Shown piece after piece: positions 5,136 to 49,012 of a stretch of 49,012 bases of DNA. The notes under the pieces are model-generated. The model worked only from the letters and a program-made list of their open reading frames with translations. It ran no database searches and had not been told where the DNA came from. This DNA is from Anaerolineae bacterium (GTDB lineage Bacteria; Chloroflexota; Anaerolineae; Aggregatilineales; Phototrophicaceae): positions 1 through 49,012 of the forward strand of contig JACSRP010000061.1 of the NCBI GenBank assembly GCA_014879665.1. The letters run 5' to 3'. The stretch's first letter is position 1. Each line of letters starts with the position of its first letter. The position numbers and the translations under genes were made by a program.

Positions 5136-6215
5136 CTATATTTGAACATGCACCGGGGTGCCATAGTCCGCCCAGTTATAGAACCATTCGGCCTCTGGCG
5201 TCGGCAGGTTCACACATCCATGGCTCATCGGTGTGCCAAAGTTGCTGTGCCAGTAGGTGCCGTGAATTGCATAGCCTTGAAAAAAGTACATCGTATAGGG
5301 CACATCCGGCAGATAATAGCCGGGGCCTGCCATCGTTTCGGCAACAATCTTACGCTGAACCGTGTAATCACCCAGTACGGTTGGTGTTGCCGGCAAGCCA
5401 GTAGAAACCAGCACATTGCGCACCAGCACGCCATTTTCATAGGCGTAAATACGCTGATCCGACAAATCTACCAGAATAGATCGCCCGGAGGAGACCGCAG
5501 CAGGCGGCGCAGCGGGTGGAATTTCGAACGCTGCGTAGGTAGCCCCACCGCTGCTGCCGGGGATGATCAATTCCATGCCCGCAAATACTGTATTCGGATC
5601 ATAGATGCCATTTGCCTGAGCAATTGTGAGCCAGCTTACGCCATATTGGGCGGCAATCTGCGAGAGGTATTCGCCCCGGCGAACAACATGCCGTGTTTCC
5701 GTGGTTATAGCCGGCTGAGCGATCTCAATCGGGGCTGCTGCCGGGATAATTTCGGCTGCTGCAACCGGTTGTGCGCCGCCAGAAACAATCAGTTCTTGCC
5801 CTGCATAAATCAAATTCGGGTTAGTGATTCCGTTCATTGATGCGAGTTGTTCCGGTGAAATACCGTACTGGCGGGCGATAGATGCCAGATATTCGCCACG
5901 CCGCACGATGTGCGTTTGTGTAACAACTGGTATTTCAACTGCTGCCGACACAATTTCAATCGGTGCCGCTGTCGTTTGGCCGGGCAGGGGAATAATTAGC
6001 GTTTGCCCGGAATAGATTTGCCAGGTATTCGTAATGCCATTCAACTGCGCCAGCGTGTTTACATCGGTGCTGTAGTAACCCGCGATCCGAAACAGATTTT
6101 CCCCTGGCTGGACGAGATGGATTTGTGCGGGATTGTCTTGCGCAGCTGTGGGCGTGGTTGCAAAACATACGGCAGCAATCAGCAGTGTTGTAATGAGCGT
6201 GAGCAATTTACGCAT
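5136..6215 (-). CDS. L,D-transpeptidase with three LysM domains
   Basis: Secreted peptidoglycan enzyme of 359 residues. A signal peptide (MRKLLTLITTLLIAAVCF, ending at about residue 26) is followed by three LysM peptidoglycan-binding modules (about 32-76, 101-144 and 176-219). A YkuD L,D-transpeptidase domain occupies about 245-359. The active-site motif HG...SHGCVNLP is intact, with His318 in HGT and catalytic Cys334. It would form 3-3 cross-links or anchor proteins to the wall. I chose the ATG at 6215, with GAGGA about 10 bases upstream, over the ATG at 6233 that would add six residues before the signal peptide. It is divergent from the beta-propeller gene. Confidence 0.93.
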   Translation of the reverse strand: MRKLLTLITTLLIAAVCFATTPTAAQDNPAQIHLVQPGENLFRIAGYYSTDVNTLAQLNGITNTWQIYSGQTLIIPLPGQTTAAPIEIVSAAVEIPVVTQTHIVRRGEYLASIARQYGISPEQLASMNGITNPNLIYAGQELIVSGGAQPVAAAEIIPAAAPIEIAQPAITTETRHVVRRGEYLSQIAAQYGVSWLTIAQANGIYDPNTVFAGMELIIPGSSGGATYAAFEIPPAAPPAAVSSGRSILVDLSDQRIYAYENGVLVRNVLVSTGLPATPTVLGDYTVQRKIVAETMAGPGYYLPDVPYTMYFFQGYAIHGTYWHSNFGTPMSHGCVNLPTPEAEWFYNWADYGTPVHVQI

Positions 6216-44820: not shown

Positions 44821-45135
44821 TTAGCTGTCTTCACGCGGCAGCACTTTACGGAACTTATAGCCATAAATGATCACGCCGCGCTCACCTTCAGCCGTCAGCC
44901 GCCGTGTAACCATTTCCACACGGTCGCCAATGGCGATACCATTTTCATCAATATCGGTGATTTGTGCTGTGACCAACCTGCCTTCGTCTAGCTTCACTAG
45001 CCCCAAAACATAGGGAGACTGATCTTCAAAACCAGCAGGAGGCTCTTGTACTACGGTGAAGCTGTAGATTTCGCCTTTGCCCGAAAAATCAAAACGTTCG
45101 GGCTGAAGTTCAACTTGTTTGCGCGTATTTAGCAT
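44821..45135 (-). CDS. DUF35 OB-fold protein (C-terminal half), possibly part of an interrupted gene
   Basis: 104 residues. GEIYSFTVVQEPPAGFEDQ (about 21-39), SPYVLGLVKLDEG (about 40-52), AQITDIDENGIAIGDRVEM and GVIIYGYKF (about 87-95) are the OB-fold of the DUF35 family, whose archaeal members scaffold the thiolase/HMG-CoA synthase complex. The Zn-ribbon that normally precedes it is missing here and is found in the ORF at 45193-45372, in the same reading frame, separated by one TAA (45193-45195) and 19 sense codons. The ATG at 45135 has no Shine-Dalgarno sequence and lies next to a hairpin, so the start is uncertain. It might be translated by reinitiation, by readthrough, or not at all. Confidence 0.8.
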   Translation of the reverse strand: MLNTRKQVELQPERFDFSGKGEIYSFTVVQEPPAGFEDQSPYVLGLVKLDEGRLVTAQITDIDENGIAIGDRVEMVTRRLTAEGERGVIIYGYKFRKVLPREDS

Positions 45136-45141
45136 AATAGT

Positions 45142-45193
45142 ATATACAGCAGCCGCTGCATCCTTCTTTTGAACAGGCGCGGTTGCTGTATAT
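45142..45193. repeat. Long hairpin between the two DUF35 halves
   Basis: A 15-bp stem with one G-U pair (45142-45156 with 45179-45193) and a 22-base loop. The stem ends exactly at the stop of the upstream half and just before the start of the downstream half. It could be an inserted palindromic element or an RNA structure. Confidence 0.6.
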
Positions 45194-45372
45194 TAGCGGG
45201 CTTCGGCTGTAACAACCGCAAATTGCACCTGTACGGGCTTTGAAACTTCCGCAGGTTGCTGGCGAGCGACCGGGATAACGCGCGCTTGTAGATGCGCTTC
45301 GCCGTTTTCATAACGCACACCTTCGAGACGATAACGTTGTGCGTTCTTTCTCCAATGGCGCGAAATCTGCAT
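45193..45372 (-). CDS. DUF35 zinc-ribbon-like N-terminal half, cysteines lost
   Basis: 59 residues. MQISRHWRKNAQRYRLEGVR matches the start of DUF35 proteins (ISRHWR...RYRLxGxxC..CG...PPR..CP.C). Here the four zinc-binding Cys are all absent: GVRYENGEAHL, QARVIPVARQQ. It ends with TAA at 45193-45195, in frame with the OB-fold half downstream. GGAG followed by TACATG gives an ideal distance to the ATG at 45372 (or 45375), so translation of this half is well supported. Likely a degenerate or split DUF35 gene. A true small gene is an alternative. Confidence 0.65.
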   Translation of the reverse strand: MQISRHWRKNAQRYRLEGVRYENGEAHLQARVIPVARQQPAEVSKPVQVQFAVVTAEAR

Positions 45373-45508: not shown

Positions 45509-46663
45509 TCAGCTTTTTAGAATATGGGTAATCACCGTACTGCCCAATCCCCCCATATTCTGGATCATCGCAGTGTGAGCATCTGGTACTTGATTGCCCC
45601 CGGCTTCGCCACGTAATTGGAGGGCAGCTTCGACGGCTTGATACACGCCGGTTGCGCCCACCGGGTTGCCCCGGCTTTTCAACCCGCCAAATGTGGAGAG
45701 CGGCAGGGTGGCGGTCAAACTAATTTCTTGATCTGCCGCGGCCCGCCAGCCTTCGCCTCGCACCGCGAATCCGGCAGATTCCAGCGTTAGCGTGGAAATA
45801 ATGGTGAATGCGTCATGCAGCTCAAACAAGTCGAGATCCGTGCGGCTGATACCCGCTTGTGCCAGCGATTTATCTACAGACAGGCGCACGGCCTCAAAAT
45901 CGAGCAGATCTCCTCGATCATGAAGCGTGAGCGTATCTGTGGCGGCGGCGCTGGCGATAATATGCACCGGCTTGACCGGGAAATTACCAGCGCCCTCGCG
46001 GCTGGTCAGGATCACGGCTGCCGCGCCATCTGCATCCGGTGCGCCATCGAACAGGGTTACCGGATCAGCAATCATGGGTGCGCGGGCAAAACCGCCCGGC
46101 TTTAACAAATTGTGGTACATGGCGTTCGGGTTTTTCGCGCCATTAGCATGTGCATTGATGCTGAAATTCTCGAATGCGCTTAACTCAACGCCGTATTCAA
46201 ACATGTAACGTCGCATGAGCAGCGCGGCTAAAGCTGGCAGTGTCGCACCATGCACCGACTCGTAATCGGCGTCAAGGCTGACACTGCGTGCGGCAATGCG
46301 ATCCGCGCCTACCGTATCTGTAGATTTTTCGACGCCTAATACGACCGCCGTATCCACCGCACCCGAGGCCACTGCCAGATACCCTGTACGCAGTGCCGCA
46401 CCGCCAGACGCATCACCCGCTTCAATGGTGAATGATTCAACACCACGAAGTCCGGCATAATCTGCGATCAATGGCCCGATCTGCGATTGACTGCTGACGG
46501 TGGCGCCGTAAGCGCTGCCAATATACAGCGCATCAACCTGTTTGATGCCGCCGTCTTCCATTGCCGCGCGTATAGCGCCAATGCCGAGGCTGCGTAGATC
46601 AGTTTCCCAATGTTCGCCTACGGGCGTTTGCCCGATCCCAATAATGCTAACTTCACGCATCAT
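45509..46663 (-). CDS. Archaeal-type (SCPx-like) thiolase, catalytic residues altered
   Basis: 384 residues of the thiolase family that pairs with archaeal-type HMG-CoA synthase. VSIIGIGQTPVGEHW, VLGVEK, ADGAAAVIL, LFELHDAF (His283) and GGLKSRGNPVGATGVYQ place it. Two key positions differ: the nucleophile motif usually AACASGG reads AGDASGG (Asp84 instead of Cys), and the HP.GATG motif reads GNPVGATG (Asn333 instead of His). Both changes are clear in the DNA. The protein may therefore be inactive as an acetoacetyl-CoA thiolase, or structural. Starts one base after the HMG-CoA synthase stop, with AGGA upstream. Confidence 0.85.
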   Translation of the reverse strand: MMREVSIIGIGQTPVGEHWETDLRSLGIGAIRAAMEDGGIKQVDALYIGSAYGATVSSQSQIGPLIADYAGLRGVESFTIEAGDASGGAALRTGYLAVASGAVDTAVVLGVEKSTDTVGADRIAARSVSLDADYESVHGATLPALAALLMRRYMFEYGVELSAFENFSINAHANGAKNPNAMYHNLLKPGGFARAPMIADPVTLFDGAPDADGAAAVILTSREGAGNFPVKPVHIIASAAATDTLTLHDRGDLLDFEAVRLSVDKSLAQAGISRTDLDLFELHDAFTIISTLTLESAGFAVRGEGWRAAADQEISLTATLPLSTFGGLKSRGNPVGATGVYQAVEAALQLRGEAGGNQVPDAHTAMIQNMGGLGSTVITHILKS

Positions 46664-46664
46664 T

Positions 46665-47756
46665 TCAATTCCTCAGCAGGTTGCGGTAGCGGCAGTAGGT
46701 AGCGTAGTCAATGACTGTGCGGCGATTGATGTAATCCATTGTTCGCGGGGCGCGATCACGGGCTTTTATAAGGCGATCCGTCACGACCAGATCAAATGAG
46801 TCTGAACCTGCGCCGCTGCCGTAGCTGGCCATTAGAATGCGATCGCCGGGATTGGCGATGTCCAGAATTGCGGTCAATCCAAGCATGCATGAGCCAGAAT
46901 ACACGTTGCCAATTTTGTCAGCAAGCAGCCCTGCGCGAATTTGCTCATCTTTGAATCCGAGCATTGAGGCGGCGCGCTGCGGGAATTTCACATTTGGTTG
47001 GTGAAACACGGCAAACTGGTAATCAGCAGCTGTGCTGCCCATCAATTCCATCAGCTTGCTCGCCGCCGAAAGCGTGTGATTGAAATAGGCGGGTTCACCG
47101 GTGAAGCGTTCACCGTGGCTGGGGTAGCTCACATCGGCACGCCGCCAGAAATCGGGCGTATCGGTCACAAAACTATAACTGCCCTGATAGATGGCGACGG
47201 ACTCCTCAGCGGGGCCAATGATGAATCCCGCCCCGCCGCTGGCGGCCGTGTATTCCAGCGCATCGCCAGGGCGGCTTTGCGCAGTGTCCATACCAATACT
47301 CAGCGTATAATTGCCCATGCCGCTGCCAACAATGCCGATAGAGGCTTGAACCGCTTCGGTGCCTGCCTTACACGCAAATTCCCAGTCCGCGGCCTGAATA
47401 TTGGGTGATGCTCCGATGCTTTCAGCCACAATCGTGCTAGTTGGCTTCACAGCGTAGGGATGGCTTTCGCTGCCGATCCACACTGCGCGCAGCAGCTGCG
47501 GATCAATCCCGGCGCGGGCAAGGGCGTTGCGTGCTGCCTCAATAGACATGGTGGTCACATCTTCATCTTGCCCTGCAACGGCTTTTTCGGTAATCGGGCT
47601 GCCGCTTAAGCCATTCGTCCATACCCGCGCCACTTCATGGCCGGGCAGGCGAAATCTGGGGACATAGGCTCCGTAGCCGACGATGCCCACCTGTCGATCC
47701 GGCCTCATCAACAGGTAATTGGTGGCGGGGCTGGTGCTGCCATTGCTGGAAAACAT
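46665..47756 (-). CDS. Hydroxymethylglutaryl-CoA synthase, archaeal type
   Basis: 363 residues; condenses acetyl-CoA and acetoacetyl-CoA to HMG-CoA in the mevalonate pathway. Catalytic Cys129 ([11 protein letters not shown]), His252 ([10 protein letters not shown]) and the [12 protein letters not shown] segment (95-106) are intact. [11 protein letters not shown] and [13 protein letters not shown] are also conserved. It fits the archaeal/bacterial type rather than the eukaryote-like mvaS. The ATG at 47756 has AAGGA nine bases upstream, overlapping the end of the reductase gene; an internal ATG at 47708 is closer to the usual family start but lacks such a site. Confidence 0.93.
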
Positions 47757-47761
47757 AGAGT

Positions 47762-49012
47762 TTATCCTTTGAGCGACTCTATAATTGCTTTTGCCCGTTC
47801 GGGGCGGATATTGTTTTCACGAATCATTTGATCAACCACAACACTCACTTGCTCCGGTGCTGCGCCCGCTGAAAGCGCAATCTGTTTGGCGTGCATTCGC
47901 ATATGCCCGCGCTGAATGCCTTCAGATGCCAGCGCGCGTAGTGCGGCGAAGTTCTGCGCCAACCCTGCTGCTGCACATATCTCTGCCAGTTCTTGAGCAC
48001 TGCTCACGCCGAGAATCTTCAAGGCCACCTGCGCCGCCGGATGTACGCGGGTTGCGCCGCCTACAATGCCAACTGAAAGGGGCATCTCTAGCTCCCCGTG
48101 AAGATTCCCATTCTCATCCTGCCAGTAATGGCTAAGACTGGTATAGTGGCCGCTTCGCGCAGCGTAAGCATGTGCGCCTGCTTCAATGGCGCGCCAGTCG
48201 TTACCCGTGGCGATAATGACCGCATCCACGCCGTTCATAATCCCTTTGTTATGGGTGGCGGCGCGGTAGGGATCAATTTCGGCAAAGATACCAGCCTCGA
48301 CCACGGCGCGGGCAACATCCTCGCCAGCCATACTCTCCGTTGCTAGTGCCGTCGCAGGGATCATCCCTTCAGCCCGGGCTTTACGTTGATCCGTTAGGTT
48401 GCTCAAAATGCGCAGGTTTACCCTGCCACCTGTGATCTCCTCGACCAGCGGGGCAATATGTTCAGCCGCAGTATTGATGGCATTTGCGCCCATGGCATCC
48501 CGTACATCCATCAACAGATGCACAACCAGCATCGGGCCAATCGGTGTTTCGGGAAACGGCCGCGTCTGAATATCCCGCGCGCCGCCGCCGCGTTTAATGA
48601 TACTCCCGCCGATAGAATCTACTTCAGCCAGCAAACGCCCTTTATTTGCGGCAATCTTTTCGGCGGCAGCAAACACATTTTGCAGATCAAGTACCTGTAG
48701 CTGCCCGATCATAATTGGCGCATCGCTGGAGGTTTGAAATCCTCCGCCTTCCCGGAATAGGCGCGCAGCATTACTCATCGCCGCGACTACCGAGGGTTCT
48801 TCGATCACCATGGGGATCAGACGATCCCGCCCATTGATGAGGAAATTGGTGGCGATGCCCAGCGGTAGGCTGTAGATGCCTACCGTGTTTTCGATCATGT
48901 GATCGGCCTGCGTAGCGCTCAGACCCGCACCATGCAGTAAGACATCAATTTCGGTATCGGTAAGTTGTGCCCGATCTTGAAGTATGCTGGCGCGTTCTTC
49001 AATGCTTCGTTT
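47762..49012 (-). CDS. HMG-CoA reductase, class II (partial)
   Basis: Reduces HMG-CoA to mevalonate. 416 codons are visible; the reading frame is open to the right edge, so the N-terminal few dozen residues are missing. The ATG at 48898 is not the start: 38 in-frame codons upstream (ending ATQADH before MIENTVG) match family sequence. Features: [32 protein letters not shown] (catalytic Glu), [36 protein letters not shown] (catalytic Lys and Asp) and [11 protein letters not shown] (His). The [10 protein letters not shown] and GHMRMH forms fit the class II (bacterial) enzymes, which often use NADH. First visible gene of the mevalonate operon. Confidence 0.94.

Follow-up and report, generated by a model that had tools for sequence, protein, structure and literature searches.

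The window analyzed here is a stretch of 49,012 nucleotides from an Anaerolineae bacterium (Aggregatilineales; contig JACSRP010000061.1). On its minus strand lie, in order of transcription, genes for HMG-CoA reductase, an archaeal-type HMG-CoA synthase (HMGS), a thiolase, a micro-ORF and a DUF35 OB-fold protein. The class II HMG-CoA reductase (47762..49012) is probably partial; its frame is open up to the window end, so its true start probably lies outside and its N-terminus is probably cut off. The HMGS (46665..47756) matched TIGR00748 and PRK04262 above cut-off. The thiolase (45509..46663, 384 aa) is of the SCP2/archaeal acetoacetyl-CoA thiolase type, as seen from matches to PF22691 and PF00108, alignment and an AlphaFold2 model. 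With an HMGS that is catalytically intact by its residues and a DUF35 OB fold, the locus belongs to the thiolase/DUF35/HMGS clusters.

The thiolase contains the motifs AGDASGG and GNPVGATG. The initial annotation had reported both of them, with clean codons, and we could confirm this: residue 84 is Asp (GAT, 46412..46414, minus strand) and residue 333 is Asn (AAC, 45665..45667, minus strand). In an alignment to the 6ESQ thiolase and the Pyrococcus thiolase 7YVY, these residues fell at the positions of the nucleophilic Cys (Cys85 of the M. thermolithotrophicus thiolase) and of the GHP/GHA-motif His, respectively, both of which are thus absent. The His of the HDxF motif was retained as His283 of HDAF (codon CAT read from the sequence at 45815..45817, minus strand). 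Judging from these residues, thiolase activity seems to have been lost, and we refer to the protein as a pseudo-thiolase. Its fold is that of a thiolase: the AlphaFold2 model had a pLDDT of 90.3, and its best solved match was 6ESQ chain A (Z 60.3, rmsd 1.3 over 380 residues). The curated NCBIfam cut-offs were missed, both for the best model, PRK06064 (393.6 vs 420), and for AcCoTHIOL_METTL (330.4 vs 600). In our alignment, the Sulfolobus thiolase-like protein ST0096 (PDB 4YZO) apparently has Ser at the nucleophile position.

We searched related genomes and a genome collection; the named matches included Aggregatilineales and other Anaerolineae MAGs, and 66 distinct Cys-less orthologues were obtained. 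Position 84 was Asp in 45, Glu in 19 and Gly in two, so that an acid was present in 64 of the 66. Position 333 was Asn in 61, His in four and Asp in one; position 283 was His in 62, Asn in two and Thr in two. The initial annotation had allowed for a sequencing error, which Cys and His in close orthologues would have indicated; instead, all of the order's same-cluster orthologues lacked the Cys. The congeneric genome G010 carries a one-base deletion in an A run of its pseudo-thiolase gene (L136, near position 5525), which is either a sequencing error or recent damage.

The 66 sequences formed one clade (support 0.999). It was nested within the Cys-type thiolases that other Anaerolineae, and MAGs labelled Myxococcales, have in the same HMGR-HMGS-thiolase-DUF35 cluster. 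In the acid clade, the early branches (L090, L157 and L174) have Asp84 and still have His333, so the Cys was lost before the His. On the sequence tree, the substitutions have a single origin, with that of the Cys coming first. Asp and Glu at position 84 interchanged repeatedly within the clade. A separate clade comprised Cys-type SCP2 thiolases located away from HMGS (L118-L135, L163-L168), with no DUF35 OB-fold match nearby.

The dN/dS of the pseudo-thiolase was about 0.03-0.2 in close pairs, which indicates purifying selection and thus a functional gene. Relative to HMGS, the acid-type thiolases diverged about twice as much as the Cys-type ones: the thiolase/HMGS divergence ratio was about 1.7-2.2 in acid clusters vs 0.7-1.1 in Cys clusters, in the well-sampled HMGS distance bins from 0.1 to 0.4. 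Positions that were invariant in the Cys clade were replaced or relaxed in the acid clade in the active site and its surroundings (51, 114, 123, 126, 127, 129, 142, 143, 146, 285, 286 and 335), and a new residue of the active-site loop, Arg126, was found in 46 of the 66 sequences. A salt bridge between residue 84 and Arg126 was considered as the reason for the acid but found no support, because 15 sequences with Asp84 have Leu126 and both sequences with Gly84 have Arg126. The MRRY block of helix 142-157 was nearly invariant in the acid clade, with Met150, Arg152 and Tyr153 kept. In the Sal-Shy structure, the helix of the thiolase-fold partner that DUF35 wraps with its N-terminal helix and OB domain is alpha4 (PMC12329534). 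Helix 142-157 follows the fourth strand in our model and may on this ground correspond to alpha4.

The DUF35 protein has been remodelled as well. In the window it consists of two ORFs with a stop between them: the micro-ORF of 59 aa (45193..45372, minus strand) and the OB fold of 104 aa (44821..45135, minus strand). The latter is the sole PF01796 match in the genome (E 2.2e-21). The micro-ORF, which begins MQISRHWRKNAQRYRLEG, is unannotated, contains no Cys, has no PF12172 match and is recognized by no Pfam model. It is homologous to the zinc-ribbon half of DUF35 by profile comparison (hhalign 97.5 %, E 6e-12) and by BLASTP (E 2e-11 to L183), and appears to be the N-terminal helix and a zinc-ribbon remnant without the zinc cysteines. 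It is preceded by a Shine-Dalgarno-like aaaggag, its median dN/dS was 0.11 (six pairs only), dozens of relatives have it with the same start motif, and in L224 and L225, where both ORFs lie outside the cluster, it has remained with the OB ORF. Read-through of the single in-frame TAA, conceivable in the window since both ORFs share a frame, was not adopted because a relative such as L009 has the two ORFs in different frames. The DUF35 proteins of known structure as of 2019 all bind zinc (PMC6996347).

The relatives show several stages of this remodelling. All four zinc-binding Cys, none of which remains in the window, are present in L183 and L204. The genomes of L076, L090 and L228 combine a whole zinc DUF35 with an Asp-type thiolase; DUF35 is split with its cysteines in L183, L184 and L227 and fused without them in L157 and L236-L239, and its halves are also separate in, for example, L009 and L010. 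These stages imply that zinc was lost after the thiolase Cys and probably more than once. L174, L204, L207 and L208 have an extra zinc-ribbon half ORF together with a full-length DUF35, which suggests a partial duplication before the split. The split, zinc-less DUF35 is a new finding alongside the pseudo-thiolase; like the retained His283 and the consistent Asp/Glu replacement, it goes beyond what had been noted at this locus before.

The HMGS residues Glu97, Cys129 and His252 were invariant in 61 acid-type and 27 Cys-type clusters. Mevalonate is the likely isoprenoid route, because Dxr was not found in 19 genomes of the order; in the source genome, mevalonate kinase was above cut-off. The initial annotation had suggested that the true acetoacetyl-CoA thiolase may lie elsewhere and proposed to look for a second thiolase. 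We found three classical thiolases (TIGR01930) elsewhere in the source genome, with Cys, NEAF and GHP motifs; that in L158 is similar to biosynthetic acetyl-CoA C-acetyltransferases. A classical thiolase was present in 50 of the 51 genomes searched. Such an enzyme may be the acetoacetyl-CoA source, and the presence of three does not prove which one feeds HMGS. In G020, G028 and G045 we found neither an HMGS of this type nor Dxr, and the mevalonate-kinase-like matches were weak; it is possible that these organisms depend on others for isoprenoids or that the assemblies are incomplete.

We surveyed co-retention in 108 genomes that were at least 90 % complete. HMGS was present in 103 of them, and each of the 103 also had an SCP2-type thiolase of the acid or the Cys type. 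G020 and G028 lacked HMGS, the SCP2-type thiolase and the DUF35 OB fold altogether. A Cys-type paralogue, called in unfetched genomes by identity to the query and not by residue, was found in 8/8 genomes without the acid type vs 18/95 with it (Fisher P = 7e-6, relatedness ignored). On the HMGS tree, the losses of the acid type were scattered over several distinct branches. Because some relatives keep HMGS and DUF35 without it, the acid-type thiolase is replaceable, at least when a Cys paralogue is present. Elsewhere it was kept even on a different contig from HMGS (e.g. G067 and G078).

We consider it likely that the pseudo-thiolase has been retained as an architectural partner of HMGS that helps to form the CoA site. 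The initial annotation had offered a non-catalytic partner as one reading, and this reading gains support from the fold, the purifying selection, the intact HMGS triad, the Cys-type thiolases elsewhere and the co-retention with HMGS, while the inactivity is deduced from the missing residues. All three proteins of 6ESQ contribute residues to the interface where CoA binds (PMC6392133), and the intermediate is described as channelled via this shared site (PMC12329534). By analogy with 6ESQ as described in PMC6392133, the bacterial proteins would also assemble physically and share a CoA site. If so, HMGS could not easily discard the thiolase fold, even without its chemistry, and we propose that the pseudo-thiolase was kept because the CoA site is an interface of thiolase, DUF35 and HMGS. 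Literature searches on a pseudo-thiolase of this kind, or on Aggregatilinea with mevalonate, returned nothing relevant.

The likely history is as follows. An ancestor would have made acetoacetyl-CoA inside an archaeal-type thiolase/DUF35/HMGS complex. When the order arose, the nucleophilic Cys changed to Asp, with Asp/Glu swaps later, and then the GHP His to Asn. Acetoacetyl-CoA synthesis would have moved to a free-standing classical thiolase. HMGS would still have needed the thiolase fold, both to wall its CoA site and for assembly. Alongside these changes, DUF35 gave up its zinc site and was divided in two, a micro-protein with the helix that would face the thiolase and the OB fold as a protein of its own.

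Some of the evidence runs counter to a structural role, including the replaceability of the acid type noted above. The residue at position 84 is almost always an acid, and His283 and Asn333 are mostly kept, so new chemistry is possible. Asp/Glu84 might be catalytic in another acyl-CoA reaction that feeds HMGS, for example as an acidic nucleophile in CoA transfer or thioester hydrolysis, or in malonyl-CoA decarboxylation. The conservation of the acid (64/66), of His283 (62/66) and of Asn333 (61/66) would fit such an enzyme, as would the frequency of new residues in the active-site loop, for instance Arg126 (46/66). However, a positioned nucleophile would not usually swap between Asp and Glu as repeatedly as seen here, Gly84 occurs in two members, His283 is missing in four, and the segment forming the active-site roof of related thiolases has loosened. 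The acid stands just before helix 86-100 of the model and can also be explained by helix capping. Given the Asp/Glu swaps, the two Gly and the four losses of His283, we prefer a structural role such as this for the acid, and we regard a repurposed enzyme as unlikely.

A thiolase that works without cysteine, condensing its substrates directly with Asp/Glu as a base and without an acyl-enzyme, is less likely still. The fold, His283 and the location in a mevalonate cluster are all compatible with it, but the nucleophile and its activating residue are both gone, conservation in the active site is relaxed, and Cys-type thiolases are available in the genome. Retro-aldolases such as Ltp2 and Sal also combine a thiolase fold with a DUF35 partner and no nucleophilic Cys; 6OK1 and 9MYR were among our structure matches, and Sal has Gly at the nucleophile position. 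Their catalytic Tyr in the xDxF motif (YDHF, YDCY), however, is replaced by His, Asn or Thr at position 283 in 66/66 orthologues (HDAF in the window), the third position of the motif is never Cys or His in the 66, and the context is mevalonate synthesis and not side-chain degradation. On these motif residues the protein does not belong with the Ltp2/Sal aldolases, and we think an aldolase reaction very improbable. Sequencing error or a decaying pseudogene, for which the deletion in the congeneric G010 might speak, has a negligible probability: for the window gene it is refuted by the 66 distinct orthologues, which are full-length and have a low dN/dS.

The pseudo-thiolase probably no longer acts as an enzyme but supports, as a structural partner, the one with which isoprenoid synthesis begins. 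The archaeal complex has been interpreted as a means to channel acetoacetyl-CoA from one active site to another, and a whole bacterial order seems to retain this architecture with one site switched off. Such a switched-off site would allow channelling and the structural contribution to CoA binding to be told apart, in a directly testable way. A natural series of intermediates exists on both sides: Cys and His, Asp and His, and Asp/Glu and Asn in the thiolase; zinc, split zinc and split zinc-less forms in DUF35. In the unlikely case that Asp/Glu84 is catalytic, the protein would be a cysteine-free enzyme of the thiolase fold, with new acyl-CoA chemistry in a bacterial HMGS complex.

Among known systems, the thiolase/DUF35/HMGS complex of M. 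thermolithotrophicus (6ESQ/6ET9) shares the same three families, the fold (Z 60.3) and intact HMGS catalytic residues with our cluster, but the window thiolase lacks the Cys and the GHP-type His, and the window DUF35 is split and has no zinc cysteines. The Pyrococcus furiosus thiolase PFC_04095 (7YVY), the closest solved sequence (about 45 % identity), also has an HDAF motif, but its Cys and GHP His are present. The Ltp2-ChsH2 and Sal-Shy aldolases likewise pair a thiolase fold with DUF35 and do not use the thiolase Cys, whereas the window protein lacks their catalytic xDxF Tyr. The Trypanosoma brucei SCP2-thiolase-like protein (TbSLP) has an SCP2-type fold without the thiolase cysteines, but it has no DUF35 partner and its motif is YDCF. 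The Friedel-Crafts acylase PhlABC (5M3K) is a related three-part assembly in which one catalytically dead condensing subunit is kept for assembly. Its HMGS-like PhlA has no catalytic Cys and Glu, and without expression of the whole operon no functional enzyme is formed (PMC6392133). Whereas PhlABC combines a dead HMGS-like subunit with an active thiolase-like PhlC, our cluster seems to be the mirror image.
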